From Nocardia alba NBRC 108234 (GTDB taxonomy: Bacteria; Actinomycetota; Actinomycetes; Mycobacteriales; Mycobacteriaceae): DNA of 64,000 nucleotides. The translations under genes were made by a program, and so were the position numbers. Below, in pieces: positions 3,711 through 21,618 of the stretch. Positions within the stretch are counted from its first letter, which is position 1; each line of letters starts with the position of its first letter. The notes under the pieces are model-generated. The model did no database searches and was not told the DNA's origin. It worked only from the letters and a program-made list of their open reading frames with translations. The stretch is taken from assembly GCF_001612665.1 (NCBI RefSeq), contig NZ_BDAX01000016.1, positions 62,001-126,000 on the forward strand, in the 5' to 3' direction.

Positions 3711-4793
3711 ATGTTGAAGTCGTACAACGAATTGTCGCGTTGGTACTCGGCGCTCGAACCGGAGCCCGAGACCGCGACCGGCGCCCCCGTGCGCCCGGAC
3801 ACCACCGAACCGGTGGCAGGCGAGGACGACAGCGTCGACCGATCTTCGGCGAGTTCCGACGCTACCGCGACGCCGGAGCCCGCCACGGCGGGGGAGCGTC
3901 AGCCGGAACAGTTCAGCCTCGCTCTCGATCTTCCGGCGGATGCCACCGGCGATACTCCGACCGAGCAGACGGCGCATCAGGCGAACACGACAACTGAATC
4001 CGTCGACCTCACCGCAGCCGAACACGAGAAGCGGCCGTCCCCCATCGAACCGGAGCCCGCGCCACCACCCCCCGCGCAACTGGCCGGACGCCGCAGCGAC
4101 TTCGTCGGCGGCTGGTCGGACTGGGTCGCCGAGCCTGCGCCCGGCCCCGACGACGACTACCACGCCGAACTCGTCCAGTTCCCCTGGCCAGAGGCCGCCG
4201 CCGACGAATACGACGACGCCCGGGTGCTGCAACCGTCCGGCGCCCTGCGCGCGGACCGGGCGCGCCAGCGTGTCCGGCTGATTCTCACGGTGTCGGTTCT
4301 CGCGCTGGTTCTCGTCGCGACCGCTGTGTTCTTCCTGCTCTTCGGGCGCGGCGACAGCACGACCGCCCGCGGTGCCGCCGCGCCACTGCACTTCACCGCG
4401 GGCAACCTGACCGCCGATACCGCGGGCTCGTGCCCGACCGAACGCACCGATATCGTGCTGCGCAGCGCCGAAGCGGGCGGCACCGACTCGGGACCCGACG
4501 CCGTCCTCGCCTTTCAATACGCCTACTACGTGACCCGATCGGGGACGCAGGCCAGAGCAGTGGTCACCCCCGACTCGGATGTCTCCCCGGCCGCCGTGAT
4601 CCAGCGCGGCATCGACACGATCCCGGTGGGGACCACCCACTGCGTGCGGATCACCACTGTCGCGGCCGACCGGTTCACGGTGGAGATCACCGAGTTCCGG
4701 CCCGCGGGCGCACCGGCCACCTACACCAAGCAAACGGTGCGGACAGCGCTGGTCGGCGATCGCACGCTCATCACGGGCATCGCGGCAGGGTAA
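3711..4793 (+). CDS. Single-pass membrane protein, first gene of the T4SS-like cluster
   Basis: No named function recognised. The 360-residue protein has an acidic, Pro/Thr/Ala-rich low-complexity N-terminus (about 1-185), a positively charged stretch, one transmembrane helix (about 190-211) and a globular C-terminal domain of about 145 residues. The charge pattern puts the N-terminus in the cytoplasm and the C-terminal domain outside. This bitopic layout resembles VirB8/TcpC-type assembly proteins, but homology is not shown by the sequence alone. A strong purine-rich ribosome site (aaaggggg) precedes the ATG very closely. The next gene starts 9 bases after the stop. Confidence 0.8.
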   Translation: MLKSYNELSRWYSALEPEPETATGAPVRPDTTEPVAGEDDSVDRSSASSDATATPEPATAGERQPEQFSLALDLPADATGDTPTEQTAHQANTTTESVDLTAAEHEKRPSPIEPEPAPPPPAQLAGRRSDFVGGWSDWVAEPAPGPDDDYHAELVQFPWPEAAADEYDDARVLQPSGALRADRARQRVRLILTVSVLALVLVATAVFFLLFGRGDSTTARGAAAPLHFTAGNLTADTAGSCPTERTDIVLRSAEAGGTDSGPDAVLAFQYAYYVTRSGTQARAVVTPDSDVSPAAVIQRGIDTIPVGTTHCVRITTVAADRFTVEITEFRPAGAPATYTKQTVRTALVGDRTLITGIAAG

Positions 4794-4802
4794 GGAGAGG
4801 CG

Positions 4803-5657
4803 ATGACAGACGATTGGAGCCGTTGGCTCGACGAGGCCCCGGCAGGGGACCCGTCCGATGACCTGGCGCGTGATCCGGCTCCGGTGGTGCGGTTGCGGCG
4901 CCGCAACGGTGAACGCCGCGACGGCACCCGCAGGCCGATTCTGGTGGTCGGTGGCTGCGGCGGCGCGGGCACGACGACGACCGCGCTCGGGCTGGCCGCG
5001 CAACTGGTCACCGTCGGCGCGACGACAGTGGCGGTCGACGCGACCGCGGCGGGCAGCGACATCGCGCTGCGCGGGGCCGACAAGCACCTGCACCCGGTGA
5101 ACCTGCAGTCCTGGGTTTACGGCCGCGGCGACGACGAACCCGCACCGCTGGAAGACTGCCTTTCCCGCTCCACCTCCGGTTTCGGGCTGCTCTGGCGCGA
5201 TGCCACCCCGCTGCGCCGCCGCGCGACATTTCTCACTGTCGCGCGGGCGCTGGACACCGGCGGGTACACGGCGGTCTATGACGGCGGCAACCCGATTGCC
5301 GGACGGCAACTGCGGCCCCTGCTCGACGACGCCGATATCGCACTGGTACTGGCCATCCCGGCCCGCGTCGACGCCGCCAACCGGCTGCGCGTGACCCTGG
5401 AATGGCTCGACGACCACTACGGCGACGACGGGGCCGGTGTGGTCGCCGACACCACTATCGTTGTCTCGCATCAGTATTCGCACGACGACTCGCGTGTTGC
5501 GGAACATTTGCGCGAACACCTGTCCGGCTGGGTGCGCGAGGTCGTCGAGATCCCCTACGACCCACACCTCGCGCGCGGGGAACTCGTCCGCCACGCCGAG
5601 TTGGCCGAGGCGACGCGTTCGGCGTATGCGAGCTTGCTCGCGGGGGTGGCATCATGA
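4803..5657 (+). CDS. ParA/MinD-like protein lacking P-loop lysines (284 aa)
   Basis: SIMIBI-type P-loop fold. The stretch ILVVGGCGGAGTTTT (residues 46-60) aligns with the deviant Walker A KGGxGKTT of ParA/MinD proteins, but the signature lysine is Cys52 and the nucleotide-contacting lysine is Thr57. Asp79 in VAVDATAAGSD is at the position of the switch aspartate. The body keeps the alternating strand/helix pattern, e.g. ALVLAIPARVDAANRL. It may position or regulate the secretion ATPases without hydrolysing ATP, similar in idea to degenerate TadZ/CpaE proteins; that is inference. It overlaps the next gene by 4 bases (ATGA). A short charged N-terminal extension (about 45 residues) precedes the fold. 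Confidence 0.8.
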   Translation: MTDDWSRWLDEAPAGDPSDDLARDPAPVVRLRRRNGERRDGTRRPILVVGGCGGAGTTTTALGLAAQLVTVGATTVAVDATAAGSDIALRGADKHLHPVNLQSWVYGRGDDEPAPLEDCLSRSTSGFGLLWRDATPLRRRATFLTVARALDTGGYTAVYDGGNPIAGRQLRPLLDDADIALVLAIPARVDAANRLRVTLEWLDDHYGDDGAGVVADTTIVVSHQYSHDDSRVAEHLREHLSGWVREVVEIPYDPHLARGELVRHAELAEATRSAYASLLAGVAS

Positions 5658-6295
5658 CGGCAGCCATGAATCTTCGTCGTCGTCGTGAACCGGACGCCCC
5701 CGCCGGTGTAGTCGCGCCGCCAGAGTCGCTGCGCGCCAAGATCTGGGAGCGCCCGGTGCCGGGGGTGGGCCGGGCGCCGCTCGTGTGGTTGCTCGGCGTG
5801 CACGGTGGCGCGGGCGCGACCACACTCGCGCACGTGCTCGCTCCCGCCGCCGACGCACGCGGGCGCTGGCCCGGGGTGTTCGACCGCGAATCCCCCTTCG
5901 TCGTGCTGGTCGCCAGGGAAACCATCTCCGGACTCACCCGCGCGCACGATCTCCTGCGCCAGCACCACGCCGGGCTCGCCGGCCCTGCGTTGGTCCTCGG
6001 CCTGATCACCGTGGCCGCGCGCCCCGGCCGGATGGCGCCGGAGATCCGGCGCTACCGGGAGGTGGTCGGTTCGCTGGCCGGGCACGTCTGGCAGGTGCCG
6101 TGGTTCGAGGAATGGACTCTGGTCGAGTCCGACGTACTTCCGGTGTGGTCGCCGGGCGATGAGGCGGCGGTCAAAAAACGCCGCCCCGATCCGCTCGACG
6201 AAGTGCCGGTCGAGATCGGTGAGCTCGGGACCGATGTGGTCGCCGCGATCCGGACGAGTCTCGGCGCTGCCGCGTCGGGCGAGGGTCGATCATGA
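5654..6295 (+). CDS. Second MinD-like, lysine-less P-loop protein (213 aa)
   Basis: Starts at the ATG overlapping the previous stop. Residues 43-58 (LVWLLGVHGGAGATTL) match the ParA/MinD P-loop but replace both lysines, with His50 at the signature position and Ala55 at the phosphate-binding position. Hydrophobic strands follow (FVVLVAR, ALVLGLITVA), and the C-terminus is acidic. It may belong to the DUF6668-type actinobacterial proteins, which I recall having a GVHGGAG signature; this needs a profile search. It is paired with the preceding gene, suggesting two non-canonical partners working together. The last codons are followed by a 94-base gap, the longest inside the cluster. Confidence 0.75.
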   Translation: MTAAMNLRRRREPDAPAGVVAPPESLRAKIWERPVPGVGRAPLVWLLGVHGGAGATTLAHVLAPAADARGRWPGVFDRESPFVVLVARETISGLTRAHDLLRQHHAGLAGPALVLGLITVAARPGRMAPEIRRYREVVGSLAGHVWQVPWFEEWTLVESDVLPVWSPGDEAAVKKRRPDPLDEVPVEIGELGTDVVAAIRTSLGAAASGEGRS

Positions 6296-6389
6296 ACGCC
6301 GGGCGGGTCACCGGTCGGTGGTGTACAAACGTGTGTCGTCGTCGAAGTGTTTGTGGCACAACACCTTTACTGTGGGAGAAAGGCACCCG

Positions 6390-6683
6390 ATGAGCATGCT
6401 CCTCCTCGCCGTGCAGGACACGTACGGCACCGTGCTGGCCCAGGTCGGAAATCCGACCCCGGAGGCTCCCCCCGGCTCGGAGAAGATCCTGCAGCTCGTG
6501 CGTTACCTCACCTGGTTCGTGCTGCTGTCGGGCATCTGCGGCATCACCTACGCGGGCGGCAAGTTCGCGTGGGAGCGCTGGACCGGTGGTGGTCTCGAAT
6601 CGCCGAAGATGGTGGCGGGCGCGATGATCGGTGGCGTCGTGGCGACCAGCGCGGGCACGATCATGAGCGCGGTCATCGGTTAG
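6390..6683 (+). CDS. Small two-helix membrane protein A, VirB2/TrbC-like candidate
   Basis: 97 residues. The ATG at 6390 is chosen because a good ribosome site (gggagaaagg) lies 6-15 bases upstream; longer in-frame readings have no site and poor composition. There are two hydrophobic segments: about residues 35-57 (LVRYLTWFVLLSGICGITYAG) and about 72-96, which is rich in Gly, Ala, Ser and Thr. Size and topology resemble pilin-like VirB2/TrbC proteins or small T4SS channel components. The stop overlaps the start of the next gene by one base, and that product has the same layout. Confidence 0.75.
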   Translation: MSMLLLAVQDTYGTVLAQVGNPTPEAPPGSEKILQLVRYLTWFVLLSGICGITYAGGKFAWERWTGGGLESPKMVAGAMIGGVVATSAGTIMSAVIG

Positions 6684-6937
6684 TGATCACTGTGCTCGCC
6701 TATAAGCAGATCCCGGCCGACGTGTTGGCGCCGATGATGCAGTTGCTCAACTGGCTGCTCTGGTTCGTCCTGCTGTCGTGCCTGGCCTGGATGATCCTGT
6801 CGGCGGGTCGACTGTGGATCGCGTTCCGCAGCGACCTGGCGGTCAACGACGCCTCACACGGTGTCCTGATGAGCCTGATCGGTGCCTCGGTCGCCAGCAC
6901 CGCGTCCGCGATCGCGCTGGCCTTCCTGCCGGCATGA
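6683..6937 (+). CDS. Small two-helix membrane protein B, paralogue-like neighbour
   Basis: 84 residues from a GTG whose first base is the last base of the previous stop (TAGTG). Two hydrophobic segments (LNWLLWFVLLSCLAWMILSAGRL and a C-terminal Ala/Ser-rich helix) mirror the preceding protein: both carry L-x-WFVLLS in helix 1 and a small-residue helix 2 ending near the C-terminus. Probably a tandem duplication giving two T4SS channel or pilin-like subunits. The stop overlaps the next ATG (ATGA). Confidence 0.72.
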   Translation: MITVLAYKQIPADVLAPMMQLLNWLLWFVLLSCLAWMILSAGRLWIAFRSDLAVNDASHGVLMSLIGASVASTASAIALAFLPA

Positions 6938-7542
6938 ATTCCACAGTGACACGACCGGTTGCGGTCGGTATCGCAGTGCTCGCCGCGGCCGTCGGCTGCG
7001 GGAGCGGTGGCGATACCGGTCCCGACCTGGCAGCCGCGCCGACCGGGGTGGGCTGGCAGGACTACCAGGGCATCTCGCTGCCGCACACCGACCAGGGCCC
7101 GAAAACGGTGGGCCAGGGCGCCGCGACGGGGTTCGAGCATTCCCCGCGCGGGGCCGGGCTGGCGGCACTGACGCACACCATCCGACTGTCGGTGGCGCCG
7201 GACAGTCAGTGGGCCCAGGTCGTGAACGCCGAACTCGTCCCGGGGCCCGCCCGGGACGACTGGGCGATCAACCGAGTACAGCTGTCGATCACCGGACCCG
7301 CTACCGCGGAGTACGCGCCGAAATTGTTGGGTTACAAAATTACCGAATATCGTGACGAGCGAACGATTGTCGACGTCTATACCGAATACTCCGACCGGTC
7401 ACGGGCGGTGAACCACACCACGGTCAGCTGGTACGGCGGAGACTGGCGATTGCAGTTACCCGAGACCGACGCCACCGACCGACCGGTCGACCCGATCGAT
7501 GAATTACCGCCCGACATTGTGACATTGGAGGCACCGCAGTGA
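6934..7542 (+). CDS. Putative lipoprotein of the T4SS-like cluster
   Basis: 202 residues. The N-terminus has a short hydrophobic stretch ending AAAVGC (a weak lipobox), suggesting a lipid-anchored extracytoplasmic protein. The rest includes GWQDYQGISLP, GFEHSPRGAGLAAL and a C-terminal WYGGDWRLQLP. The same pattern (W, then P, then GYxxTPxGAxLAA, then GDWRLK/QxP) recurs in the next gene, so the two are probably paralogous. Function is unknown; an extracytoplasmic scaffold next to the channel is plausible from position. The stop overlaps the next start (GTGA). Confidence 0.72.
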   Translation: MNSTVTRPVAVGIAVLAAAVGCGSGGDTGPDLAAAPTGVGWQDYQGISLPHTDQGPKTVGQGAATGFEHSPRGAGLAALTHTIRLSVAPDSQWAQVVNAELVPGPARDDWAINRVQLSITGPATAEYAPKLLGYKITEYRDERTIVDVYTEYSDRSRAVNHTTVSWYGGDWRLQLPETDATDRPVDPIDELPPDIVTLEAPQ

Positions 7543-8354
7543 GCGAGAGGGAGCCGGGCACGCGCGACCGCGCATCCTTCGGCATGATCGCCTCCGGTGC
7601 CCTGCTCGCCCTGATCATGGTCGTCGGCGCCGTCGTGTACTTCACGCGTGACGGCGGCAGCGAGGTAGACAACGCGCCGCCGCCGGCTCAGGCCGCGGGC
7701 GGCACGGGATTCGCCGAACCCGAGGTCGACCTGCTCGGCAGGCGGGTGGACATTCCGAACAACCCGGCGGGTCAGCCGCTGGCCCAGCAGCCGGGTACGC
7801 AACGTACCGCCGCTGACCCGGATTGGCTGAACGGCGCGCCGGAGGGCACCACGAAACCGCATGGATGGCAGCGTGTCTACGGCGCGTCGGTGCCGTTCTC
7901 CACCTCCGACGGGCCGTCGCGAATCGAGGACGGACTCGCCGTCGGTTACGCGCGGACCCCGCAGGGCGCCGCGCTGGCCGCCGCGCAGATCACCTACCGG
8001 CTCAACGCCCGTCCGGCCGACCGCGACCTGTATGTGACGCAATTGCGGGTCAGCACAGCGCAGCTGGCCGCCTACGACTCCGCGTTGTCCGGCGAGCGGC
8101 TGCCCAAACAGCAACCGGAGAAGGTCACCAGGTACTTCGTGGCCTCCGACGCGTTCCGGATCGACGACTTCGCCGAGGATCTGGCGATCGTGCGGCTGGC
8201 CTCGCGCGGTCCGGTGATCGACGGCAAGCAGCTGTACGCCGCGATGCGGATGATCGTGGTGTGGGACGCCGGCGACTGGCGGCTCAAACCGTCGACGACA
8301 GCAAATACGCAAACCGAATACGTGGAAACGCTGGCGGGGTGGACAACATGGTGA
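7539..8354 (+). CDS. Single-pass membrane protein related to the preceding lipoprotein
   Basis: 271 residues from a GTG overlapping the upstream stop. A transmembrane helix at about residues 15-36 follows a short charged N-terminus, so the long C-terminal part is outside. That part contains GWQRVYGASVPF, GYARTPQGAALAAAQ and VWDAGDWRLKPS, matching motifs in the upstream lipoprotein. I cannot assign a function; a VirB8/VirB10-like bridge between the membrane ATPases and the envelope is one possibility from topology and context. Confidence 0.75.
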   Translation: MSEREPGTRDRASFGMIASGALLALIMVVGAVVYFTRDGGSEVDNAPPPAQAAGGTGFAEPEVDLLGRRVDIPNNPAGQPLAQQPGTQRTAADPDWLNGAPEGTTKPHGWQRVYGASVPFSTSDGPSRIEDGLAVGYARTPQGAALAAAQITYRLNARPADRDLYVTQLRVSTAQLAAYDSALSGERLPKQQPEKVTRYFVASDAFRIDDFAEDLAIVRLASRGPVIDGKQLYAAMRMIVVWDAGDWRLKPSTTANTQTEYVETLAGWTTW

Positions 8355-8410
8355 TCGAGGTAGCGCACAGCCCGGATCGATTCCGAACGGACCATCGAGG
8401 GGTGCCAACA

Positions 8411-9865
8411 ATGCTGAGGCGGATCGTCACCATTCTCGCGGTGATCTTCACCGTGATGATCGCGACGCCGACGGTGGCCTACGGCCAGACCTACGGCTTC
8501 GACGAGGCATGCAACGAACTGCACGACACACTCGACAGCGTCGCGATCCCCGGAGTCTCGCTCGGCGACGCGGCGTCGGCGGTGTGTAAGGCGGGCAATG
8601 CCGCCTCCCATCCCGGCGACGCGGCCACCGCGGTCAAGGACAAGGCGTGGGATTCCACCTTCGGCAAGGTGGTCGACTCGCTGATGAAGGGCCTCGGCGA
8701 GGCCCTGATCCTGGCATTGACCTTCTGGATGAAGGTGCCCAACGAGGCGGTGAGCGATTCGGGGGCACTGTTCACCAAGATCAACGACTACACGTATCAG
8801 ATCCAGATATTGCTGTTGATCGCCTCGGTGATCATCACCGGCGGCCGACTGGCCGAGGCCAGACGCGGGGCGGCCGTGAGCGAGGCCGCCGAATCGTTCC
8901 GCCTGTTCGCCAGGGTGGTCTTCAGTTCGTGGATGCTGGGCGCGGTGATCGTCGCGGGTACGCGAGCCTCGGACAAGTTCTCCGAGTGGATCATCGAGGA
9001 CGCCACCGGCGGCAATGCCAAGAACATGGCCGAGCTGATGGTGAAAACCAGTAAATTGCAGGCCTTCTCACCGGGTCTGGTGCTGATCATCGCCATCGTC
9101 GGCCTGCTCGGCGCGCTCGCTCAGATCGTGCTCGCCATCGTTCGGCAGGGTCTGCTCGTGGTCGCCGCGGGCGTGCTGCCGTTGGCCGCCGCCGCATCGG
9201 CGACCGGTACCGGCAAGCAGTCCTATCAGAAACTGGTGGGCTGGATCATCGCGTTCATGCTGTTCAAACCGGTGGCCGCGATCGTGTACATGATCGCGTT
9301 CACCACCGCGGGCCACGTCGACGAGACCACCCAATCGGGTGGCCTGCCCAGCGGCGAGGACGCGCAACGGATGTTGGTGGCGCTGGTGCTGCTGTGCAGC
9401 GTGGCGTTCGTGCTGCCCGCGCTGATGCGCTTGGTCGCGCCCGCTGTCGCCACGGTGGGCACGGGCGGTTCGGGTCTGATGGTGGCAGGCGGCGCGGCGG
9501 TGGCCGCGATGGGTCTCGGTGCGATCGGGACCAAGGCGGTCGCCTCTCGGCCGGTGGCGGCGCCCGGGTCCGCGGGCTACTTCGGTAGTGGCGGTGCGGG
9601 TGCGCGGCCCGGCGGGCCCGGTGGCGGTCCGGGTGGCGGCGGTGGTGGGAATACGCCGCGCCCGGTGCAACCACCGCGCGGCGGCGGTTCCGCACCCCCG
9701 AGGGCCAGTTCGGGCTCGGTGCCCGCGGGTGCGGCCCGCAATGTGGCGGCCGCACGGACCGCGGCCAACACCACCGGGCGCGCGGATCAATCGATGGGCG
9801 ACGTCGCGGGTGACCGCTGGGCGAATCGTTCCCCCGACCTCGGCAGGAGCACGATTCCGCGATGA
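8411..9865 (+). CDS. Polytopic VirB6/TrbL-like channel protein
   Basis: 484 residues. ATG 8411 is preferred over ATG 8348, which overlaps the upstream gene, because it has a GAGGGG site about 9 bases upstream and starts with a hydrophobic signal-like segment ending PTVAYG. At least five further hydrophobic segments follow, including YQIQILLLIASVIITGG, LVLIIAIVGLLGALAQIVL, WIIAFMLFKPVAAIVYMIA and LVALVLLCSVAFVLPALM. The last 120 or so residues are a soluble Gly/Pro/Arg-rich tail. The topology matches VirB6/TrbL inner-membrane channel subunits of type IV secretion. The ATGA overlap with the SCO6880-like gene supports a shared complex. Confidence 0.85.
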   Translation: MLRRIVTILAVIFTVMIATPTVAYGQTYGFDEACNELHDTLDSVAIPGVSLGDAASAVCKAGNAASHPGDAATAVKDKAWDSTFGKVVDSLMKGLGEALILALTFWMKVPNEAVSDSGALFTKINDYTYQIQILLLIASVIITGGRLAEARRGAAVSEAAESFRLFARVVFSSWMLGAVIVAGTRASDKFSEWIIEDATGGNAKNMAELMVKTSKLQAFSPGLVLIIAIVGLLGALAQIVLAIVRQGLLVVAAGVLPLAAAASATGTGKQSYQKLVGWIIAFMLFKPVAAIVYMIAFTTAGHVDETTQSGGLPSGEDAQRMLVALVLLCSVAFVLPALMRLVAPAVATVGTGGSGLMVAGGAAVAAMGLGAIGTKAVASRPVAAPGSAGYFGSGGAGARPGGPGGGPGGGGGGNTPRPVQPPRGGGSAPPRASSGSVPAGAARNVAAARTAANTTGRADQSMGDVAGDRWANRSPDLGRSTIPR

Positions 9866-11358
9866 CGACCTCGGCGACCGACACCTACGAGCGCCGCTCG
9901 TACGGGCTGTGGCAGAAGCCGCGCAGCGCGGGCCTTTTCGGCCTGCGCTGGGAAGAGACCGTGATCGGTTTCGTCGTGGTGATCACGGCGCTGATCTGTG
10001 CGATGGTCGGTGGATTCAAATGGGGCTTCGTCGTGGGCGGGCTCGGCGCGCTGGTGATGGTGCCCCTGGTATGGCGGACAGGGGGCCGCTCGGGCTATGA
10101 GACGGGACTGATGATGTTCAACTGGAGGCGCTCGCGCAACAACGGCGAGCACGTGTATCGCGGTGGCCGGTTCTCCCGGATCCCCGGCGGTGTCACGAAA
10201 TTGCCGGGGTTGCTGGCGCCGTCGAAGCTCTACGAAGGCATCGACGCGGGCGGCTATCACTTCGGGATGATCCATCTGCCCGCGTTCGCGCAGTACACGG
10301 TGGTGCTGCGGGCGTGGCCGCAGGGGCACGAGGCAGTGGACCAGCCGGTGATCGATCGCTGGGTCGCGGCCTGGGGTACGTTCCTCGCCTCGGTCGGCCA
10401 GACCAGCGACATCGTGGCGGTGGTGCCGGTGATCGACACCGTGCCCGAGACCGGAAACCGGCTGCTCAACGAGGTTTCCACGATCACCCGGCCCGAAGCG
10501 CCCGATCTGGCCCAGCAGGTGATGTACGAGCTGGCCACCGAATTGCCGCAGGAGCGGGTGCAATTGCTGCCTCGGGTGGCGATCACGTTCAAGGCGACCA
10601 CCGCCGAGCGGCGTAAGAACCCGGCCGAGGAAGCGGTGGAGATCGGGCGCAGGCTGCCCGGTATCTGCGCGGCGCTGGCCGAAGCGGGCGTGCGGGCGCA
10701 GCCGATGTCGGCGGAGGAGGTCATCTCGTTCATCCGCCGCAGCTACGACCCGGCCTCACAGGCCGACCTGGAGGTGGCCGCCGCCGATCCCGGTGGGCAC
10801 GGTCTCGGCTGGGACGACGCGGGCCCGGTGTCCTACGACGAGAAGTGGGATCACCTGATCCACGACGGCGGCCGCTCGGTGACCTGGGAAATGGACGCGG
10901 CGCCCGAGGGCGCGGTGGACGAGCGGGTGCTGCAGCGACTGCTCGCGCCCAATCCCGAGGTGCCACGCAAGCGCATCGCGATCGTCTACCGGCCGCACTC
11001 GGCCGCCGACGCCGCCGAGATCGTCGACGACGATTTCAAGAACGCGCTCGTGGCGCAGCAGAGCGAACGCGGCGTGGTCTCGGCGGCGGCGACGCTGCGC
11101 GTCGGCGCCACCCAGCAGGCCCGCGAGGAGCAGGCGCGCGGACACGGTGTCACCCGGTTCGGGGCGCTGGTGACCATCACCGAACCGCTGCGCGGTGACC
11201 TGCCCCGTATCGAGGCCATCACCCGCGACCTGTCCACGCAAGCCCGGCTCAAGATCCGGCGCTGCTACCGCTACCAGTCCGCGGCGTTCGCGGCATCTCT
11301 CGGTTGCGGCGTGATCCTGCCCGAACACGCAACCATTCCGAAGGCATTGGCGGGGTGA
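9862..11358 (+). CDS. SCO6880-family membrane protein (PrgI/VirB3-like N-terminus)
   Basis: 498 residues. The N-terminus carries YGLWQKPRSAGLFGL, then two closely spaced membrane helices (about 32-70), then a large soluble domain without a P-loop. This layout, and its position directly before the VirB4-like ATPase gene, match the actinobacterial SCO6880 family found in conjugative elements. The two-helix start resembles VirB3/PrgI, and the soluble part resembles the N-terminal region that precedes the motor in VirB4 proteins. It may therefore act as the membrane half of a split VirB3/VirB4 unit. That division of labour is inferred. Confidence 0.85.
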   Translation: MTTSATDTYERRSYGLWQKPRSAGLFGLRWEETVIGFVVVITALICAMVGGFKWGFVVGGLGALVMVPLVWRTGGRSGYETGLMMFNWRRSRNNGEHVYRGGRFSRIPGGVTKLPGLLAPSKLYEGIDAGGYHFGMIHLPAFAQYTVVLRAWPQGHEAVDQPVIDRWVAAWGTFLASVGQTSDIVAVVPVIDTVPETGNRLLNEVSTITRPEAPDLAQQVMYELATELPQERVQLLPRVAITFKATTAERRKNPAEEAVEIGRRLPGICAALAEAGVRAQPMSAEEVISFIRRSYDPASQADLEVAAADPGGHGLGWDDAGPVSYDEKWDHLIHDGGRSVTWEMDAAPEGAVDERVLQRLLAPNPEVPRKRIAIVYRPHSAADAAEIVDDDFKNALVAQQSERGVVSAAATLRVGATQQAREEQARGHGVTRFGALVTITEPLRGDLPRIEAITRDLSTQARLKIRRCYRYQSAAFAASLGCGVILPEHATIPKALAG

Positions 11359-11365
11359 GGCGAAC

Positions 11366-13657
11366 ATGGGACGCGACTACGAACCCCCGGTGCGCGATCG
11401 CGACGATGTCGCGTTGCGCCCGGTCCACCGGCCGCCGCGCATCCGCGGGGAACGCGAGCCACGGGCCGCGGGGAGCGCGCCGCGCGTGAGCGACGACGTG
11501 CTCGGCCTCGACGAGCGCACCGAACGCGACGAGCGGGAACGCTCGACGCGGGGAACACGCGTGCCCGAAGGACGTCCACCGGTCGAGCAGCGCTCGCGGG
11601 AGGACACCCGCGCCGAGCGAGGTCGTCAGCCTCGGCCCCGTGGCGAGGAGCCACGTAGGCCCCGTGGCGACGACCCGCGCCGGCCACGCGAGGACGAGCG
11701 GCGGATGCGGGGCCCGCGCCCCGACGCCGACCGGGGCGCCCGGGCGCGCGCCGAGCGTGGGTTGCGCGATCAGGATCACGGGCCCCGGCTGGACCACGAA
11801 CGCCCAGCGGTTGATCCGCGCCGACGCCCCAAGCCGGCGGAACCGAAGCCGATGAAGAAGGCGCGGCCCGCGAAGGCGGTACGTCCCATCCGGGCCGACG
11901 ACGCCGCCGATCGGGCGATGGGGTCGGGCCGCTCGGCGAAATCGACCAAGCCGGAGCGGCGTTCGCAAGGCCCCGCCCTGCTCGACGACGCCACCCGCGC
12001 CCGCTACGAGATGATCGCCCGCGAGCAGTCGGGTCTGCGCGCGGCCTGGGCGACGTTCCGGATCCACACCGACGACCTGCGCCGCAACAACGCGCACGCG
12101 CGCTCGGAGGCCGTGGTCAAGGACGGATTCGACCGCACCACCGCCGAATTGACCGACCGCGGATACTCGGGCGCGGGCGGCGGCAAGATGAACGTCGTCG
12201 GCCGACCGGTCGAGTATCGCGCCACCACCGCCCAGGTGGCGGGTCTGTGGCCGTGGTCGGTCGGCGCGGGTGCGCCGCTGATCGGCACCCCGCTCGGGTC
12301 GCATCTGCACACCGGCGCCCCGGTGTGCTTCGATCCGATGAACTGGTTCATGCGCGGCAGCTTCATCACCGCGCCCAGCCTGTTCGTGCTCGGCCTCAAC
12401 GGGTTCGGCAAGTCCTCACTGGTGCGCCGCATCGTGCTCGGCGGCATCGCCCAGGGCATCACGCCGCTGATCCTGGCCGACGTGAAACCCGACTACCGCA
12501 AGATGGTCGAACTCGTCGGCGGCCAGGTGATCGACCTCGGCTACGGGCACGGCAAGCTGAACCCGCTGGCTGCGGGCGTACTCGGTTCGGTCGTCCCCCG
12601 CCTGGTGGACAAACCCGCGCTGCAACGGCAGGTGCTGCAGGATCTGCGCGCCCGGCAGGTGACGCTGATCGCGGGCCTGGTGGAGCTGGTCCGCGGCGCG
12701 CGCGTCGCCGATTTCGAGGAAACGCTGATCGCCACCGCGTTGCGCATCCTCTACCAGCCGGGCGGGTTCACGCCGGACAAACCGCCGATCATGGAGAACC
12801 TGCTCGAGGTGATCGTCGGCGGCGGCGCCGAGATGATGCTCGACGCGGGCGCGGACAACGCCGACGAATACCAGAACGCGATCAAGGGCCTGCGCCGTTC
12901 GCTGCGCGCGCTCACCCAGGGCCCGTTCGGCGCGATCTTCAACGGCCAGACCAGCGTTCCGATCGACACCGGCGCCGTCGCGGTGTGCATCGACGTCTCG
13001 CACATCCCCAGCGGCGACAAGAAACTCAAGGCCGCGGTCATGTTGGCGTGCTGGGCGGACGGTTTCGCCTCGGTCGAGGCCGCGCACGTGCTGGCCGACG
13101 CCGACCTCGGTCCGCAGCGCTACTTCCAGGTGGTGATGGACGAGCTGTGGCAGGTGCTCGGACTCGGCGATTTCATGGTCGACCGCGTCGACGAACTGAC
13201 CCGTCTGCAACGCGGTCTGGCGACCGCCTTGATCATGATCAGCCACACCATCAAGGACCTGCAGGCGCTGGGGTCCGACGCCGCGATCGCCAAGGCCATC
13301 GGCTTCCTGGAACGCGCGCGCGCCAAGATCTTCGGCGCGCTACCCGCCGAGGAGATCAGCAGGCTCGACTCCACGGTGCCGTTCACCTCGGCCGAGCAGG
13401 AGATGGTGACCAGTTGGTCGGCGCCGCAAGCCCTGACCGGTGAGGCGCTCAAGCCGGGCCAGCAGCGGCCCTCGCCCCCCGGGACCGGCAAGTTCCTGCT
13501 CAAGGTCGGCGAGGATCGCAGGCCGGGCATTCCCTTTCACATGGAGTTCACGGTGTCGGAGCGAGAAAGCGGAATCCACGACACGAACCAGCGCTTCAGC
13601 GAGTTCGGCGACAACCCGAGGGGCACGCCGGACTATTCCAACGGGAGTGAGCAATGA
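11366..13657 (+). CDS. VirB4-like secretion ATPase
   Basis: 763 residues. The first 200 or so are a highly charged Arg/Asp/Glu-rich, probably disordered region; the ATPase domain follows. Walker A is GLNGFGKSS with Lys349; a Walker B-like VVMDELW lies near residue 592, and a Gln/His-rich sensor-like segment (LIMISHTIKDLQAL) follows. This is the FtsK/VirB4 motor class that powers substrate or pilin handling at the inner membrane. The absence of membrane helices agrees with the helices being in the SCO6880-like partner directly upstream. The stop overlaps the next ATG. Confidence 0.92.
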   Translation: MGRDYEPPVRDRDDVALRPVHRPPRIRGEREPRAAGSAPRVSDDVLGLDERTERDERERSTRGTRVPEGRPPVEQRSREDTRAERGRQPRPRGEEPRRPRGDDPRRPREDERRMRGPRPDADRGARARAERGLRDQDHGPRLDHERPAVDPRRRPKPAEPKPMKKARPAKAVRPIRADDAADRAMGSGRSAKSTKPERRSQGPALLDDATRARYEMIAREQSGLRAAWATFRIHTDDLRRNNAHARSEAVVKDGFDRTTAELTDRGYSGAGGGKMNVVGRPVEYRATTAQVAGLWPWSVGAGAPLIGTPLGSHLHTGAPVCFDPMNWFMRGSFITAPSLFVLGLNGFGKSSLVRRIVLGGIAQGITPLILADVKPDYRKMVELVGGQVIDLGYGHGKLNPLAAGVLGSVVPRLVDKPALQRQVLQDLRARQVTLIAGLVELVRGARVADFEETLIATALRILYQPGGFTPDKPPIMENLLEVIVGGGAEMMLDAGADNADEYQNAIKGLRRSLRALTQGPFGAIFNGQTSVPIDTGAVAVCIDVSHIPSGDKKLKAAVMLACWADGFASVEAAHVLADADLGPQRYFQVVMDELWQVLGLGDFMVDRVDELTRLQRGLATALIMISHTIKDLQALGSDAAIAKAIGFLERARAKIFGALPAEEISRLDSTVPFTSAEQEMVTSWSAPQALTGEALKPGQQRPSPPGTGKFLLKVGEDRRPGIPFHMEFTVSERESGIHDTNQRFSEFGDNPRGTPDYSNGSEQ

Positions 13658-13962
13658 TGCCGCACCGGTCTTATCGCCGGGTCTCACCGGAGGTCCGCGA
13701 CGCCGCCGTCGCCCAGGTGGTCGCGCTGACCGATAAGTTGCGCAGCGAATCAGAGGCGTGCCGGATGGTGGCCGAACAGATCGGCGTGCACGCCAATTCG
13801 GTGCGCAACTGGGTCCGTGCGACCCAGGACCCGAGCCTGGACCGCATGGACGCCACCGCGCTACGCCGCAAAGTGGCGCTGCTGCAACAACAGCTGGCCG
13901 CCGCCGCGGAGATGAACCGCACACTCGCCGACACGCTCAACGAGTCCCGGCGCCGCACATGA
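13654..13962 (+). CDS. IS3 OrfA-like helix-turn-helix/coiled-coil protein
   Basis: 102 residues. The N-terminal half (YRRVSPEVRDAAVAQVV, then AEQIGVHANSVRNWVR) matches the helix-turn-helix of IS3/IS911-type OrfA transposase subunits, and the C-terminal 35 residues form a leucine-rich coiled coil as in OrfA. There is no OrfB (DDE integrase) frame after it, no programmed frameshift context and no flanking inverted repeats. The start is coupled to the ATPase stop by ATGA. It looks like a transposase DNA-binding subunit co-opted as a cluster component, perhaps a DNA-binding or regulatory protein. Confidence 0.8.
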   Translation: MMPHRSYRRVSPEVRDAAVAQVVALTDKLRSESEACRMVAEQIGVHANSVRNWVRATQDPSLDRMDATALRRKVALLQQQLAAAAEMNRTLADTLNESRRRT

Positions 13963-14023
13963 ACTCCGCCGCGGCGGACGTTGCGCGAATCGGCGCCCGG
14001 CGCGGCACGCGGGGAGGCGACCG

Positions 14024-15679
14024 GTGAACGTCCGCACGCTGATGATGACGGTGTTCGGCTCGGTCGTCGGGCTGGTGGCCCTGGTGCTGGTGATCGTGCT
14101 GCCGTCCTCGGATGAGACCTGCGAGACCGGCGATGTGCTGGTCGGCTCGTCGGTGCCCACCCTGCCTCAGCTCGGCGCCGACAATCGCGCCCTTCCGACC
14201 AGCGCCGCCGCACCCACGTCGAATCCGACGGTCACCGCCACGCCGGTGTTGGCCGCGGGCGTCGGTCCGCTGCGCCGCACGCTGCCGCTGGAGATCGGAA
14301 CGTTCACCGTCTCCGATGTGTTCGGCTCGCGCGGCGGCGACCACAAGGGCATCGACATGGCCGCCACCGACGGGACCACGATCTACTCGGTCTCCGACGG
14401 CAGGGTCGTCGCCGCCGGACCCGCGTCGGGTTTCGGCAACTGGATCGTCGTCGATTCCGTCGACACCAACGGCCGCGCCTATTCCGCGGTCTACGGCCAC
14501 ATGTGGGACACGGGCGTGCGGGTGCGCACCGGCCAGACGGTGACCGCGGGCCAGCCGATCGGGATGGTCGGATCGGCGGGCGAATCCAGCGGCCCGCACC
14601 TGCATTTCGAGATCGTGCCCGGCGGCCGGTTCACCGGTGGTCGTCAGATCGATCCGATGCCGTGGCTCGACGGCGCGCCCACCCCGGATGTCGGTGGTGC
14701 GCGGGCGTTTTCGAGCGATCCGAACTGTGTGCGCGGATTCGGGAGCGCCGGTGGGGCACTGGCCGACGGAAAGGTACCCGCCGAGCTGGAGATCTGGTAC
14801 CGCCGCGCGGGGACGGTGTGCCCGGAGATCTCGTCGTCGCTGCTGGCCGCCCAAGCCAAGCAGGAGTCGGGATTCCGGCGCGGGCTCACCTCGCCCGCCG
14901 GCGCCCAGGGCCTGGCCCAGTTCCTGCCCGGCACGGCGGCCGGCATCAATCCCGAGGACGGTCAGCCCTACGTCATCGATGCCGACGGCAACGGGTCCGC
15001 CAGCGTATGGGACGACGGCGACGCGATCATCGGCCAGGCCAGGTACATGTGCTCGATCGCCCACAAGATCGCGGGCTGGATGGCCGCGGGGCGCGTCTCG
15101 GGCGACCTGGTCGCGCTCACCCTGGCCGGGTACAACGCCGGTGAGGGCGCGGTGCTGGCGTCCGGGGGGATGCCAAATCAGTACGCGGCGCACTATTCCG
15201 AGACCAGGCCCTACGTCACCAACATCCTGTCGATGGAACCCCAGTACCGGGCGCCCGGCGCACAGGGCCGCTTCACGCCGGGCCAGGGCGGTGGCGGCGA
15301 ACAGATCGTCGAGGCCGCCCACGACTGGCTCGGCACACCGTATGTGTGGGGCGGCGGTGGCGCGCAAGGGCCCAGCAGTGGCGGATTCGACGGACCGGGA
15401 CTGACCGCCGCGGCGGTGTTCGCCGCGTCCGCCGGCGCAGTCACATTGCCGCGCACCGCCGAACAGCAGTGGGAGGCCGGGCGGGAGGTGCCGATCGCGA
15501 AAGTGGCGGCGGGCGATCTGGTGTTCAGTGGGTTCGGACGCCAAGGCCCGTCCCAGGTCGGGATCTACGCGGGCAACGGTCGGCTGATCCAGTCGGTGCC
15601 GCCGACGAGCAACCGCGGGGGCGGGGGCGTCACCGAAGTGGCGGTGCCCGGCGACGCACGAGCGAGGAGGGTGTTGTGA
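14024..15679 (+). CDS. Three-domain cell-wall hydrolase: M23, lytic transglycosylase, degenerate NlpC/P60
   Basis: 551 residues, membrane-anchored by an N-terminal helix (about 5-27). An M23/LytM peptidase domain (about 95-205) keeps its zinc ligands His107, Asp111 and the GPHLHFE pair (His192/His194). A soluble lytic transglycosylase domain (about 250-400) has its catalytic Glu281 in QAKQESGF. The C-terminal NlpC/P60-like domain (about 425-545) has GTPYVWGG and PVAAGDLVF-like features, but the catalytic Cys of FDCSGL is Gly457 (FDGPGL) and the His of HVGIY is Gln511, so it is probably catalytically dead. It would open peptidoglycan for the secretion channel, like VirB1. GTG start with ggggagg 6 bases upstream. 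Confidence 0.93.
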   Translation: MNVRTLMMTVFGSVVGLVALVLVIVLPSSDETCETGDVLVGSSVPTLPQLGADNRALPTSAAAPTSNPTVTATPVLAAGVGPLRRTLPLEIGTFTVSDVFGSRGGDHKGIDMAATDGTTIYSVSDGRVVAAGPASGFGNWIVVDSVDTNGRAYSAVYGHMWDTGVRVRTGQTVTAGQPIGMVGSAGESSGPHLHFEIVPGGRFTGGRQIDPMPWLDGAPTPDVGGARAFSSDPNCVRGFGSAGGALADGKVPAELEIWYRRAGTVCPEISSSLLAAQAKQESGFRRGLTSPAGAQGLAQFLPGTAAGINPEDGQPYVIDADGNGSASVWDDGDAIIGQARYMCSIAHKIAGWMAAGRVSGDLVALTLAGYNAGEGAVLASGGMPNQYAAHYSETRPYVTNILSMEPQYRAPGAQGRFTPGQGGGGEQIVEAAHDWLGTPYVWGGGGAQGPSSGGFDGPGLTAAAVFAASAGAVTLPRTAEQQWEAGREVPIAKVAAGDLVFSGFGRQGPSQVGIYAGNGRLIQSVPPTSNRGGGGVTEVAVPGDARARRVL

Positions 15680-16242
15680 CCACGCGACCAGCGATAACCT
15701 GGTGGGAGAGAACACGAATCCGCACAACCCCGGCGGTGATGCTCGTGGCAGTCCTGCTCACGGTCTCGGCGTGCGGTGGCGCGGCCGAGCCGACGCGTCC
15801 CGAGGCCACCGCCACCACGCGTCTGCTCGAGGCCGCGGCCGATCCGACGACTCCCGACGGTGTCGCGGTGGTCGCGCTGCGCGAGGTCTACACCTGGAAC
15901 CCCGCGACCGAGCAACCAGGTTCCTCGTTGCAGCGCGCGCGAGAATGGTTAGGGCCCAGCATGATACGTATGCTGGACAGTTCGATCGGGGTCACCGAGA
16001 CCCCGAAACCGTCGCTGCAGTGGGCCGACTGGGCCAAGGCGAAAGCGCACGTGGAGGCGTTCACCTTCGCCTCGGGCGAGCCCGCGCCCACGAGCGCCGA
16101 TCCCACGGTGGCGCAATACAAGATCGGCATCGAACAAACGGTCGTCTACCCGAACGGACGCACCGAAGAGCTACCGCCGAGCACGGTCATCGCGACCGTG
16201 GTGCAGACGCCGCAAGGCTGGCGCCTCGACGCGTTCCGCTGA
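15676..16242 (+). CDS. Lipoprotein of the T4SS-like cluster
   Basis: 188 residues from a GTG overlapping the hydrolase stop. The signal ends in a good lipobox (TVSAC). The mature part starts with a Thr/Pro/Ala linker, then contains VVALREVYTWNPATEQ and a final GWRLDAF, which suggests a compact NTF2-like domain of the kind used in VirB8/TcpC-type conjugation proteins. That fold is an inference. The following gene starts 31 bases on with its own ribosome site. Confidence 0.75.
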   Translation: MTTRPAITWWERTRIRTTPAVMLVAVLLTVSACGGAAEPTRPEATATTRLLEAAADPTTPDGVAVVALREVYTWNPATEQPGSSLQRAREWLGPSMIRMLDSSIGVTETPKPSLQWADWAKAKAHVEAFTFASGEPAPTSADPTVAQYKIGIEQTVVYPNGRTEELPPSTVIATVVQTPQGWRLDAFR

Positions 16243-16273
16243 CCACCCACCACGTCCACACAAGGAGGCTTCC

Positions 16274-18100
16274 GTGGCGAAGAAGAAGGTGACGGATCCG
16301 GCCGCGGTCGGACCCGACACGACGCTGATCATGATCCAGTTCGGGTTCGCGGTGCTGATCACCCTCGCGGTCGCCCTGCATCTGGGCAACGCGCTGGCGG
16401 TTGTGCCGCAGACCATTCCGATCAACCCGATCGCGGTGGTCGCCGATCTGGCGCGGGGCAAGCTGCACTGGCCGCGTGCGTCGACGGTGATCGTGCTGTT
16501 GGTGATCGCGTCGGTCATCGCGTTCGTGGTGATCCGCAAACGTCTGCGGACGCGCGCGGTCGTCGGTCGGCTGGCGGTGGACGACAAGGCCGACTACATG
16601 GGCAGCGGCAGTGCCATCCACTCGATCACCGAAGCGGGGGTACGGGAGAAGGCGAACGATCTCGGGGTGCGACTGGGCAGCGATGACGCACCCGGTGTTC
16701 CGATCGGCATCGCGGTCGCCGACGGCACACCCGTCTACGGTTCCTATGAAGATCTGCACCTCGATATCTGGGGCCCCAGGCAGGGCAAGTCCACGTCGCG
16801 AGTGATTCCGGCGATCCTGTCCGCGATCGGTCCCGTCCTGGCGACGTCCAACAAACGTGACGTGGTCGACGCGACCCGCAATGTCCGGGAAGCCAAGGGC
16901 AGCAGTACTTTCGTGTTCGACCCGCAGGGTGTGGCGGGTGAGCGGGCAACCTGGTTCTGGGATCCGTTGGCGTGGGTCGACCACCGCACCGAAGGCTGCG
17001 AGATGCGGGCGGCCCGGCTGGCCGGCCATTTCGCCGACGCCGAGACCGGCGCCAGTTCCGACGACAGCGACAGCTTCTTCGGCCCGGAAGCCGAGGATCT
17101 ACTCGCCGCGCTCTTCCTCGCGGCGGCCATCGCGGGCAAGCCGATCACCCAGGTCTGGGAATGGGTGACCGACCCTCAGAACATCGAGCCGATCAAACTT
17201 CTGCGCGATGTGGGGCACCACTTCACCGCGTCCGGTCTGGCTATGCAATACAACTCCGAACAGCGCACCAAGAGCGGCATCTTCGGATATGCCAAGAAGA
17301 TGATCCGCTGCCTGCAGTTGTCGAATGTGCATCCCTGGATCACGCCGGGCAACGACACGCGCCCACGATTCGACGAACTCGAGTTCATCGAGCGCAACGG
17401 CACGCTGTATTGCCTGTCGCTCGAAGGGCGCGGGTCGGCGGCTCCATTGGTCAGCGCGCTCACCGAGGCCGTCATCGATGTGGCCATGCGCAAGGCGTCG
17501 AGGTCCTCCGGTGGACGACTGCCGATCCCGCTGCTGGCCGTGCTCGACGAAGCGGCCAATGTGGTGCGCTGGAAAGATCTGCCCAAGCAATACAGCCATT
17601 TCGGTTCCAGGGGCATCGTGGTGATGACGGTGCTGCAGTCGTGGGCCCAGGGCGCGCGCTGCTGGGGCGAGGACGGGATGAACGCGCTGTGGTCGGCGGC
17701 CAATATCAAGGTGCTGGGCAGCGGCGTCGACGATATGGCTTTCCTGCGCGACCGCTCCGAGGCCATCGGCGAGTACGACTCGATCTCGTCGTCGATGTCG
17801 CAGTCGGGCAACAGCAAGAGCTATTCCCGCTCGCTCTCGTCGTCGGTGACGTTCACGGCGCAGGGGTTGGCGACATTGCCGCGTGGTCGAGCTGTCGTCT
17901 TCACCTCGGGCCAGCCCGCCGTGCTCGTGCGGACGGTGCCGTGGTGGGAATCGAGATACGCCGACGCGGTCAAGCAATCGATCGAGTACAACGATCCGAC
18001 ACGTAAAACGCGCATCGACGACCAGTTCGGGTCGTCCGTGCTCGCGAAATCCACTCCGCCGGAAGAGATCGGTGACGTCGAGGAGGTCAAGCCGCTGTGA
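16274..18100 (+). CDS. VirD4/TraG-like coupling ATPase
   Basis: 608 residues with two N-terminal membrane helices (about 18-42 and 71-88) and a cytoplasmic motor: Walker A GPRQGKST with Lys172 and Walker B LLAVLDEAA with Asp425-Glu426. This is the architecture of type IV coupling proteins, which hand DNA-protein or protein substrates to the channel. It keeps the apparently intact catalytic motifs, in contrast to the two lysine-less P-loop proteins upstream. GTG start with aaggaggc 6 bases upstream. No relaxase gene is found nearby, so the substrate is unknown. The stop overlaps the next gene (GTGA). Confidence 0.93.
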   Translation: MAKKKVTDPAAVGPDTTLIMIQFGFAVLITLAVALHLGNALAVVPQTIPINPIAVVADLARGKLHWPRASTVIVLLVIASVIAFVVIRKRLRTRAVVGRLAVDDKADYMGSGSAIHSITEAGVREKANDLGVRLGSDDAPGVPIGIAVADGTPVYGSYEDLHLDIWGPRQGKSTSRVIPAILSAIGPVLATSNKRDVVDATRNVREAKGSSTFVFDPQGVAGERATWFWDPLAWVDHRTEGCEMRAARLAGHFADAETGASSDDSDSFFGPEAEDLLAALFLAAAIAGKPITQVWEWVTDPQNIEPIKLLRDVGHHFTASGLAMQYNSEQRTKSGIFGYAKKMIRCLQLSNVHPWITPGNDTRPRFDELEFIERNGTLYCLSLEGRGSAAPLVSALTEAVIDVAMRKASRSSGGRLPIPLLAVLDEAANVVRWKDLPKQYSHFGSRGIVVMTVLQSWAQGARCWGEDGMNALWSAANIKVLGSGVDDMAFLRDRSEAIGEYDSISSSMSQSGNSKSYSRSLSSSVTFTAQGLATLPRGRAVVFTSGQPAVLVRTVPWWESRYADAVKQSIEYNDPTRKTRIDDQFGSSVLAKSTPPEEIGDVEEVKPL

Positions 18101-18513
18101 GCCAGGATATTTCGGACGCGGGTAAGCAAGGACGGGTCTACGCCGGTGTGACCGAGTTCGTCGGCGAGTACTTGAGCCAGCTCTATCAAAGACAGGTCAC
18201 CGATATCAGTGACACGGTGTGGTGCCCGGAATGGTGGCGCCACCCGGAGGCCGCGGTGCGCTTGGACGCGCTGTGGCAGGCCTGGGAGCACTATCGGATG
18301 AAGGGCGGCCCGGGCATCAGCATCTGGTTCCTCGAACACGCCGACCCGCACATGACCAAGCTGTTCGACCCGCGAGGACCGTTCAAGTATTGCAGTGTGC
18401 GCAACGGGCACAAGGAGATGCTCTCCTCGTTGCCGTTGAAGAAACCGGATCTGGATCTGTGGACCGAGCCGGAAAACGGACTGTGGGACAAAGGGGCCGC
18501 GCCCGGCGCGTGA
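18097..18513 (+). CDS. DUF4913-like protein at the end of the T4SS-like cluster
   Basis: 138 residues, soluble. The conserved-looking segments VWCPEWWRHPEAAVRLDALW, AWEHYR and GISIWFLEHADPHM are typical of the DUF4913 family, which I know from actinobacterial plasmids and integrative elements next to TraG-like genes. Function is unknown; a tight GTGA overlap with the coupling protein gene suggests a substrate adaptor or coupling accessory. Family assignment is from recall. Confidence 0.8.
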   Translation: MSQDISDAGKQGRVYAGVTEFVGEYLSQLYQRQVTDISDTVWCPEWWRHPEAAVRLDALWQAWEHYRMKGGPGISIWFLEHADPHMTKLFDPRGPFKYCSVRNGHKEMLSSLPLKKPDLDLWTEPENGLWDKGAAPGA

Positions 18514-20258: not shown

Positions 20259-20343
20259 TACCGCGTTCCTCCCATGTCGTCAGGTTCGTCTAGAGGGTAA
20301 CCGGTTGGACGCGAGGGGCGCCCGTGGGGAAAACTGGACCATC

Positions 20344-21618
20344 GTGACCAAGACCAGCAGCTTCACCGCCCCGAAGGGGGTCCCCGATTACCTGCCGCCC
20401 GGTTCGGCCGAGTTCGTCGCCGTCCGCGACGGCTTGATCCACGCCGCCCGACTCGCGGGGTACGGGCACGTGGAGCTGCCGGTATTCGAACAGACCGCCC
20501 TGTTCGCACGGGGTGTCGGTGAGTCGACCGATGTGGTCAGCAAGGAGATGTGGACCTTCGCCGACCGCAACGGCGAGAGCTTCACCCTGCGTCCCGAAGG
20601 CACCGCGGGCGTGATGCGCGCGGTGATCCAGCACGGTCTGGACAAGAGCGGTCAGCTGCCGGTGAAGCTCTGCTACGCCGGTCCCTTCTTCCGGTACGAG
20701 CGCCCGCAGGCCGGTCGTTACCGGCAGTTGCAGCAGGTGGGCATCGAGGCGATCGGCATCGACGACCCCGCCCTGGACGCGGAGGTCATCGCGATCGCCG
20801 ATGCCGGATTCCGCGCGCTCGGCCTGGACGGATTCCGTCTCGAGATCACCTCGCTCGGCGACGAGACCTGCCGCCCGCAGTATCGCGAACTGCTGCAGGA
20901 GTTCCTGCGTGCGCTGCCCCTCGACGAGGAGACCCAGCGCCGCGCCGAGATCAACCCGCTGCGTGTGCTCGACGACAAGCGTCCCGAAGTGCGTGCGCTG
21001 ACAGCGAACGCGCCGCTGATGATCGATCACCTCTCGGAGTCGGCGAAGGCCCACTTCGACGAGGTGCTGGCCCACCTCGACGCGCTCGGCGTGGCGTACG
21101 TGGTGAACCCGCGCATGGTGCGCGGTCTGGACTACTACACCAAGACCACGTTCGAATTCGTGCACGACCAGCTCGGCGCGCAGTCGGGCATCGGCGGCGG
21201 TGGCCGCTACGACGGACTGATGGCCGAACTCGGCGGCCAGCCGCTGTCGGGCATCGGATTCGGTATCGGGGTCGACCGGACGGTGCTGGCGCTCGCGGCC
21301 GAGGGCAAGTCGGCGGCCGATCCGGCGCGCTGCCAGGTGTACGGCGTCGCGCTCGGCGACGAGGCCAAGGCGAAACTGGTCGCGGTGGCCGGCGAACTGC
21401 GTGCCGCGGGCATCAGTGTCGACCTGGCCTATGGCGGGCGCGGAATGAAGGGCGCGATGAAGGGCGCCGACCGTTCGGGGGCGAGATACACCCTCGTGCT
21501 CGGCGATCGTGATCTCGCCGAGAACACGATCGGCGTCAAGGAGATGGCGAGCGGCGAGCAGCGGTCCGTCCCGCTCGACGCCGTCGTGACGGTGCTGAGC
21601 GAAGAACTCGGTCGCTGA
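20344..21618 (+). CDS. hisS: Histidyl-tRNA synthetase
   Basis: 424 residues, class II synthetase charging tRNA-His. GTG 20344 ([12 protein letters not shown]) gives the usual length and start. Motif 2 region [10 protein letters not shown] and [11 protein letters not shown], histidine-specific [13 protein letters not shown] and motif 3 [10 protein letters not shown] are intact; the C-terminal anticodon-binding domain covers about 335-424. It follows the divergent cyclophilin gene, as in related actinobacteria. Confidence 0.98.

Follow-up and report, generated by a model that had tools for sequence, protein, structure and literature searches.

The operon and its OrfA-like protein

The window (the whole 64,000-nucleotide stretch of Nocardia alba DNA analysed here) contains a co-oriented gene set, extending from about 2006 to 18513, which holds a small open reading frame (ORF) resembling OrfA of IS3-type insertion sequences (IS). 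The set opens with genes for a cutinase, A360, a ParA-like protein, a DUF6668-like protein, four small components, TM479, SCO6880 and a VirB4-like protein, and continues with the OrfA-like protein, an M23/SLT/NlpC-P60 hydrolase, M189, VirD4 and DUF4913. Upstream of this operon lies relA, and downstream, at 20335–21618, a gene that we take, from reading its sequence, to be hisS. The individual features, all on the forward strand, are:

1954–1976, + strand: conserved single-copy element TCTGTTACSGTYTANTGSGTTTC, candidate promoter or operator
1956–1964, inside this 23-bp element: TGTTACGGT, extended −10-like
2006–3658, + strand: cutinase-family protein, at the operon head; on three plasmids, too, a cutinase precedes the cluster
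3711–4793, + strand: A360, conserved 360-aa component
4803–6295, + strand: ParA/MinD-like P-loop protein and DUF6668-like protein (CbiA and DUF6668 both below cut-off)
6384–6683, 6680–6937, 6931–7542 and 7539–8354, + strand: four upstream components of the type IV secretion system (T4SS), their order kept in most loci
8426–9865, + strand: TM479 component, no Pfam match, putative membrane role
9862–11358, + strand: SCO6880-family protein (NF042935, 562 bits), a conserved marker of the T4SS
11366–13657, + strand: VirB4-like ATPase (P-loop_TraG and VirB4_plasma, both below cut-off)
13654–13962, + strand: OrfA-like protein, 102 aa, with a helix-turn-helix (HTH) at about residues 12–57 and a long C-terminal helix (67–101)
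14024–15679, + strand: M23 + SLT + NlpC/P60 wall hydrolase (Pfam), next gene after OrfA
15673–16242, + strand: M189, conserved 189-aa component
16274–18100, + strand: VirD4/TraG-type coupling protein (TraG-D_C, 107 bits)
18097–18513, + strand: DUF4913 protein (129 bits)

The neighbours of the OrfA-like gene form a conjugation-type set (SCO6880, wall hydrolase, VirD4 coupling protein and DUF4913), in line with an earlier note that placed the gene in a secretion operon. That note's label 'VirB4-like' is looser than it implied, the gene scoring 22.2 bits with the TraG P-loop profile (cut-off 25.8) and 47.9 bits with NCBIfam VirB4 (cut-off 590). The ATGA coupling it described is present: the OrfA start codon ATG (13654) overlaps the VirB4-like stop codon TGA (13655–13657). 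By Pfam, OrfA is the sole HTH-type protein in the operon, several of whose products have no Pfam match. Because relA was detected in 18 of 20 upstream stretches of primary Nocardia loci, the T4SS locus is a fixed chromosomal one; the hisS stretch was found by tblastn in orthologous loci L142 and G567. We also considered whether the gap from OrfA to M23 holds a conserved small ORF, and rejected this since the gap varies widely in length among species.

The ORF at 13654–13962, described earlier as encoding an HTH and a leucine zipper of OrfA type, is real and has a coding-type codon bias (GC3 0.85 versus GC2 0.49). Pfam HTH_Tnp_1 matches its product over residues 8–82 at 28.8 bits (cut-off 24.1), and 18 of 30 aligned family members at E < 0.01. 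A profile built from 30 relatives and searched against the PDB returned IS629 OrfA (2rn7) first, with an E-value of 5e-10 across HTH and zipper, followed by RacA (0.0046) and Cgl2762 (2jn6; 0.0066). The AlphaFold2 model built on the 30-sequence alignment (mean pLDDT 80.5, pTM only 0.47) has three helices in the HTH region (12–27, 32–43 and 47–57) and one long helix of 35 residues (67–101), which fits the domain layout read earlier. This predicted helix, which the IS629 OrfA profile match spans, agrees with the C-terminal zipper or coiled coil of IS3 OrfA, and the protein may well dimerise through it. Foldseek with the model again ranked 2rn7 first (E 0.016, with nothing below 0.001), as did VIA structural comparison (Z 8.2, 55 residues, 31% identity). 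Other Foldseek and VIA matches (homeodomains, Mu, ArdK and others) were weaker than IS629 OrfA or common HTH arrangements, and the PHROGs matches were weak and mixed.

The window protein is related to the IS3 OrfA type. Tree building placed 33 of 34 T4SS-borne OrfAs in one clade free of IS-type OrfAs (22 rows, 21 distinct genes; UFBoot 85/73), the proteins being short and support weak away from this main split. The remaining one, L107, falls outside the clade. The separate placement of L107, the modest Foldseek E-value and the finding that just two of eight typed OrfA proteins scanned exceed the HTH_Tnp_1 cut-off might all suggest a generic HTH regulator of other origin that came to resemble OrfA by convergence. 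We consider this improbable, as the family profile reaches IS629 OrfA across both HTH and zipper with an E-value far ahead of the next PDB entry, and an IS-type OrfA with an adjoining OrfB-like ORF (L186) reaches 57.6 bits in a match that covers almost all of the profile.

Retention of OrfA in the secretion cluster

Eighty SCO6880 loci were sampled, 20 each from primary Nocardia loci, Nocardia second copies, other genera of the family and the phylum, the last set including one Nocardia second copy (L122). OrfA lies downstream of VirB4 in 20/20, 13/20, 16/20 and 0/20 of these, respectively and, with the window included, it does so in all 50 OrfA-bearing loci. The next component match after it is M23 in 46 of the 50, the other four (L130, L131, L141 and L145) having no M23 match. 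A 4-nt overlap with VirB4 was scored in 36 of 50 rows, with starts chosen to favour overlap; eight primary Nocardia loci have a gap of 13–136 nt, and a longer stretch separates the two genes in L069, L075 and L085. In L069 and L075, OrfA is 5–6.6 kb from VirB4 and still adjoins M23. The apparatus can do without OrfA, given that seven of 20 second copies and four of 20 family loci lack it. Ten of these 11 OrfA-less loci were inspected, and none of the ten has an OrfA-like ORF between VirB4 and the hydrolase; mostly, the next ORF starts right at the end of VirB4 or no more than about 0.1 kb from it, and in L073 the hydrolase ORF starts about 1 kb from VirB4.

Pairwise protein distances of OrfA track those of SCO6880 (r 0.85), VirB4 (0.80) and TM479 (0.87), as judged against the 0.93 obtained between SCO6880 and VirB4; the correlation is weaker with G271 (0.75) and weak with M23 (0.19). 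Position is fixed and inheritance shared, as in a conserved T4SS component, and OrfA is confirmed as a long-lived, co-diverging part of the cluster in Nocardia and its relatives.

The absence of OrfB and of terminal repeats, both reported in the earlier note, was borne out. OrfB-like ORFs were sought beside seven IS-type OrfAs, six of which yielded one query each, identified as OrfB by position. Searching up to 3 kb from OrfA found no OrfB in any of the 50 loci; five of the six queries also match other IS loci, the L175 query matching only itself. Within window positions 13350–14350 there are three weak inverted-repeat pairs, none of which brackets the OrfA ORF. Two features of IS3 insertion sequences, an adjacent OrfB (50 loci) and terminal inverted repeats (window), were thus not found here, and for a third, a programmed −1 frameshift that yields OrfAB, no OrfB frame was found either.

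Orthologues of OrfA are present in 146 of 148 Nocardia genomes (E ≤ 6e-47, 78–100% identical), which excludes a chance ORF; SCO6880 is present in 144 of 148 (E ≤ 1e-20). The two genomes without an orthologue (G032 and G054) are both drafts, one of them 85% complete and the other in 1340 contigs. Searched against its own 7.28-Mb genome, OrfA gives one strong match, itself, the next having an E-value of 2.6e-4, and most Nocardia genomes have a single match at E ≤ 1e-4. The best 80 of 113 loci in a scan of named genomes are all from Nocardia, with N. salmonicida at the top (98%). Omega is 0.083 over 210 pairs, indicating strong purifying selection, beside 0.072 for SCO6880, 0.133 for VirB4 and 0.248 for VirD4. 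Similarity to IS3-type proteins is all that speaks for a recent IS remnant or functionless hitchhiker, a reading that we reject in light of this near-universal presence, the strength of selection, co-divergence with the apparatus and the lack of OrfB and window repeats. The gene is conserved in homologous loci, and the earlier proposal that a transposase-subunit type of protein was recruited into a secretion operon, and retained, is well supported.

Constraint is unevenly distributed along the protein. Residues 32–57, comprising the second and third helices, have a pN/pS of 0.056, the coil 0.145, and helix 1 (0.266) and the linker (0.240) are under weaker constraint. An OrfA-type protein with so highly constrained a recognition region should bind DNA. 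The same figures bear on the idea that OrfA acts as an adaptor through its coiled coil alone, the HTH being less important. Such an adaptor is brought to mind by the sister genus G567 (locus L088), where the OrfA slot holds a 60-aa ORF that starts MMPKR and contains a coil-like VLQRQLAAM stretch but no HTH. This ORF comes from a single genome of that genus and may be a decaying remnant, and in Nocardia it is the HTH, rather than the coil, that is most constrained; we therefore hold the adaptor reading to be doubtful at best.

A candidate operator and the proposed role

Alignment of the gap between relA and the cutinase gene from nine Nocardia loci revealed a single block whose conservation stands out strongly from the sequence around it. 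Its 23-bp core lies 29 bp ahead of the listed cutinase start (2006), and the first half contains a sequence that matches the general consensus for an extended −10 motif. Mean conservation is 1.83 bits in the core versus 0.81 and 0.51 in its two 30-bp flanks, the core figure being favoured by the choice of rows; the second half of the element is also strongly conserved, and its position fits a start site plus operator. A 27-bp form occurs once in the whole source genome (≤3 mismatches), and the core (≤1 mismatch) is found in 122 of 148 genomes, always as exactly one copy per genome; a reversed control pattern has no match in any of the 148. Seventy-seven of these 122 matches lie on a contig that also has a listed SCO6880 match, and all 77 are upstream of it and co-oriented, 5.8–8.9 kb away. 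Among the 20 sampled primary loci, 16 have the core at this threshold.

The core is absent (≤1 mismatch) from 26 of 148 genomes. The best core match in element-less Nocardia loci has 7–8 mismatches, similar to the plasmid and second-copy clusters. Four element-less genomes whose loci were read (G011, G028, G072 and G141) keep OrfA, its recognition helix identical in sequence to that of most loci bearing the element, and have another block conserved upstream. G567, which shares the relA–T4SS–hisS locus, lacks both the HTH part of OrfA and the element, a single instance of co-loss. From these sequence patterns we infer that OrfA may bind the element at 1954–1976; with 26 genomes lacking the element, and the four that were read keeping OrfA, it is a good candidate operator and no more. 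It may be just a promoter, or be bound by another factor.

Three further proposals about regulatory sites were rejected. One operator common to the plasmid and second-copy clusters was not found: no match to the 27-bp form with ≤7 mismatches occurs in L068–L127 (most of which begin 6.5 kb before SCO6880 and may miss the operon head) or L199–L201, the best core matches in the upstream stretches of L203–L221 and in L199–L201 have 6–8 mismatches, and the OrfAs of these clusters are divergent. An ECF-type promoter (GGAAT-N16-CGTT, after the general consensus) was dropped because GGAA varies whereas the 23-bp core is nearly invariant. An operator in the gap at 6296–6383, ahead of the first of the four small components, was discarded because conservation there is confined to the ribosome-binding region.

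We propose that OrfA is a domesticated protein that controls its own T4SS operon, a reading to which we assign a probability of roughly 0.55. An IS3-family OrfA, parted from its catalytic partner and from its terminal repeats, would have become a dedicated part of the Nocardia/Rhodococcus/Gordonia-type T4SS cluster. Dimerised through its coiled coil, it would bind DNA with its HTH and control the operon, probably from a site over the operon-head promoter, the element above being the putative operator. Being made together with VirB4, it would act as an autoregulator. Repression would be a guess at the direction of control, by analogy with OrfA as a repressor in IS elements. Regulation is favoured by the conserved promoter-like element, by the lack of any other HTH match (Pfam) in the operon and by the distribution of relaxases: both families searched (TrwC and Relaxase) are absent from 13 of 59 tested genomes, all 13 of which keep OrfA. 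These 13 include a single-contig assembly (G050), a 78%-complete one (G015) and two without an SCO6880 match (G045 and G058).

The earlier note had left two purposes side by side, binding of DNA substrate and regulation of the operon; of this, recruitment stands, and the evidence on the role, which is indirect, leans towards regulation. As a substrate or relaxosome-type accessory, OrfA would pass transfer DNA to the VirB4 and VirD4 ATPases, which would suit its overlap and co-divergence with VirB4, and the HTH and zipper of IS911 OrfA-type proteins act in transposase–DNA complexes (PMC2909936). We nonetheless regard this role as unlikely, because OrfA persists in the 13 genomes without either relaxase family, sits beside M23 rather than VirB4 in L069 and L075, and is borne by a plasmid, pKNR, on which a separate MobC accessory and a relaxase are encoded about 10 kb from OrfA. 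Bolder still is the notion of a relaxase-less chromosomal T4SS in which, across the whole genus, OrfA is the DNA-recognition subunit, marking DNA for VirB4/VirD4 and replacing the usual substrate-recognition machinery. If true, a jumping-gene subunit would have taken over substrate recognition, but we see this as a long shot.

Control of the operon by OrfA would offer a handle, with a defined candidate site, on how a little-studied actinobacterial T4SS is switched on, and on what a chromosomally fixed T4SS does for Nocardia.

Comparison with known systems

Domestication of transposase parts is a familiar phenomenon. In the titles and abstract openings of the literature searched, with subscription papers largely outside, we found no description of an OrfA-like T4SS component or of a genus-wide chromosomal T4SS in Nocardia. 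Nor did we find there a lone OrfA retained as part of a T4SS with which it co-evolves; three plasmid records (pKNR, the Nocardia sp. NBC_01503 plasmid and p1) label this protein 'transposase'. Some other plasmid matches to OrfA are annotated 'hypothetical protein'.

IS629 OrfA/TnpE (2rn7) and Corynebacterium Cgl2762 (2jn6) combine an N-terminal HTH with a long C-terminal helix, as does the window protein. Unlike OrfA of IS3-family insertion sequences, the latter belongs to a T4SS operon with which it diverges, and no OrfB (50 loci) or terminal repeats (window) were found beside it. HTH and zipper domains are described for IS911 (PMC2909936) and an extended −10 promoter for IS2 (PMC3219604); OrfA acting as a repressor is not mentioned in the passages concerned.

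SCO6880-type T4SSs in the phylum sample share SCO6880, a VirB4-like protein and mostly VirD4 with the window but have no OrfA, and VirD4 is the next component match after VirB4 in 16 of the 20. By contrast, pKNR from R. opacus B4 and p1 from G. pseudamarae have the same order as the window, that is, SCO6880, the VirB4 position, 'transposase', wall hydrolase, TraM-recognition (VirD4-type) protein and DUF4913, with a cutinase upstream in both. The VirB4 position is annotated 'hypothetical protein' in the plasmids, and consists of two CDS in p1. A part played by cutinase and murein hydrolase in crossing the cell wall in such systems follows the suggestion made for pRErm46 (PMC6794481). The window gene order holds up to M23 in the NBC_01503 plasmid. 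Unlike these plasmid clusters, the window copy is chromosomal, lying between relA and hisS on a contig with no match to the TrwC and Relaxase families.

A chromosomal T4SS between relA and hisS

The type IV secretion system (T4SS) cluster occupies a fixed location:

2006–18513, T4SS cluster, between relA and hisS

Its conserved marker, SCO6880, was found in 144 of 148 Nocardia genomes, and relA lies upstream of the cluster in 18 of 20 stretches. Because 13 of 59 genomes contain neither of the two relaxase families (TrwC and Relaxase), the T4SS at this locus looks like a core-genome system rather than a self-transmissible element. The N. alba genome itself carries a single SCO6880 locus (E <= 1e-20), and its Relaxase-family and TrwC matches are on contigs other than that of the window:

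Contig C33, 66914–67294 and 74065–75294, relaxase matches
Contig C48, 33624–33953, relaxase match

Mobile elements carrying these matches might borrow the chromosomal T4SS.

OrfA and its slot

The 23-bp candidate promoter/operator element at the operon head is absent from four Nocardia loci:

L130, L131, L141 and L145 (upstream stretches L150, L151, L161 and L165), genomes G141, G072, G011 and G028

All four retain the IS3 OrfA-like gene (OrfA) and share a different conserved block upstream of the gene for the 360-aa component; the wall hydrolase gene M23 had no match in its slot, and cutinase had none within the fetched stretch of each genome.

In a sister genus (G567, locus L088), a 60-aa ORF occupies the OrfA slot between VirB4 and M23; it has a coil-like stretch, lacks the helix-turn-helix, and may represent either decay or a reduced adaptor. 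In two second copies of the T4SS (L069 and L075), the VirB4–OrfA distance is 5–6.6 kb, and OrfA still adjoins M23.

13959–14027, 22-codon ORF overlapping the OrfA stop and M23 start

This ORF is probably not a gene, since OrfA–M23 gap lengths vary among other species.

Comparison with type VII secretion

In Pfam, the SCO6880-family protein (9862–11358) matched EccE of type VII secretion weakly and below threshold, at 17.8 bits (cut-off 23.7).
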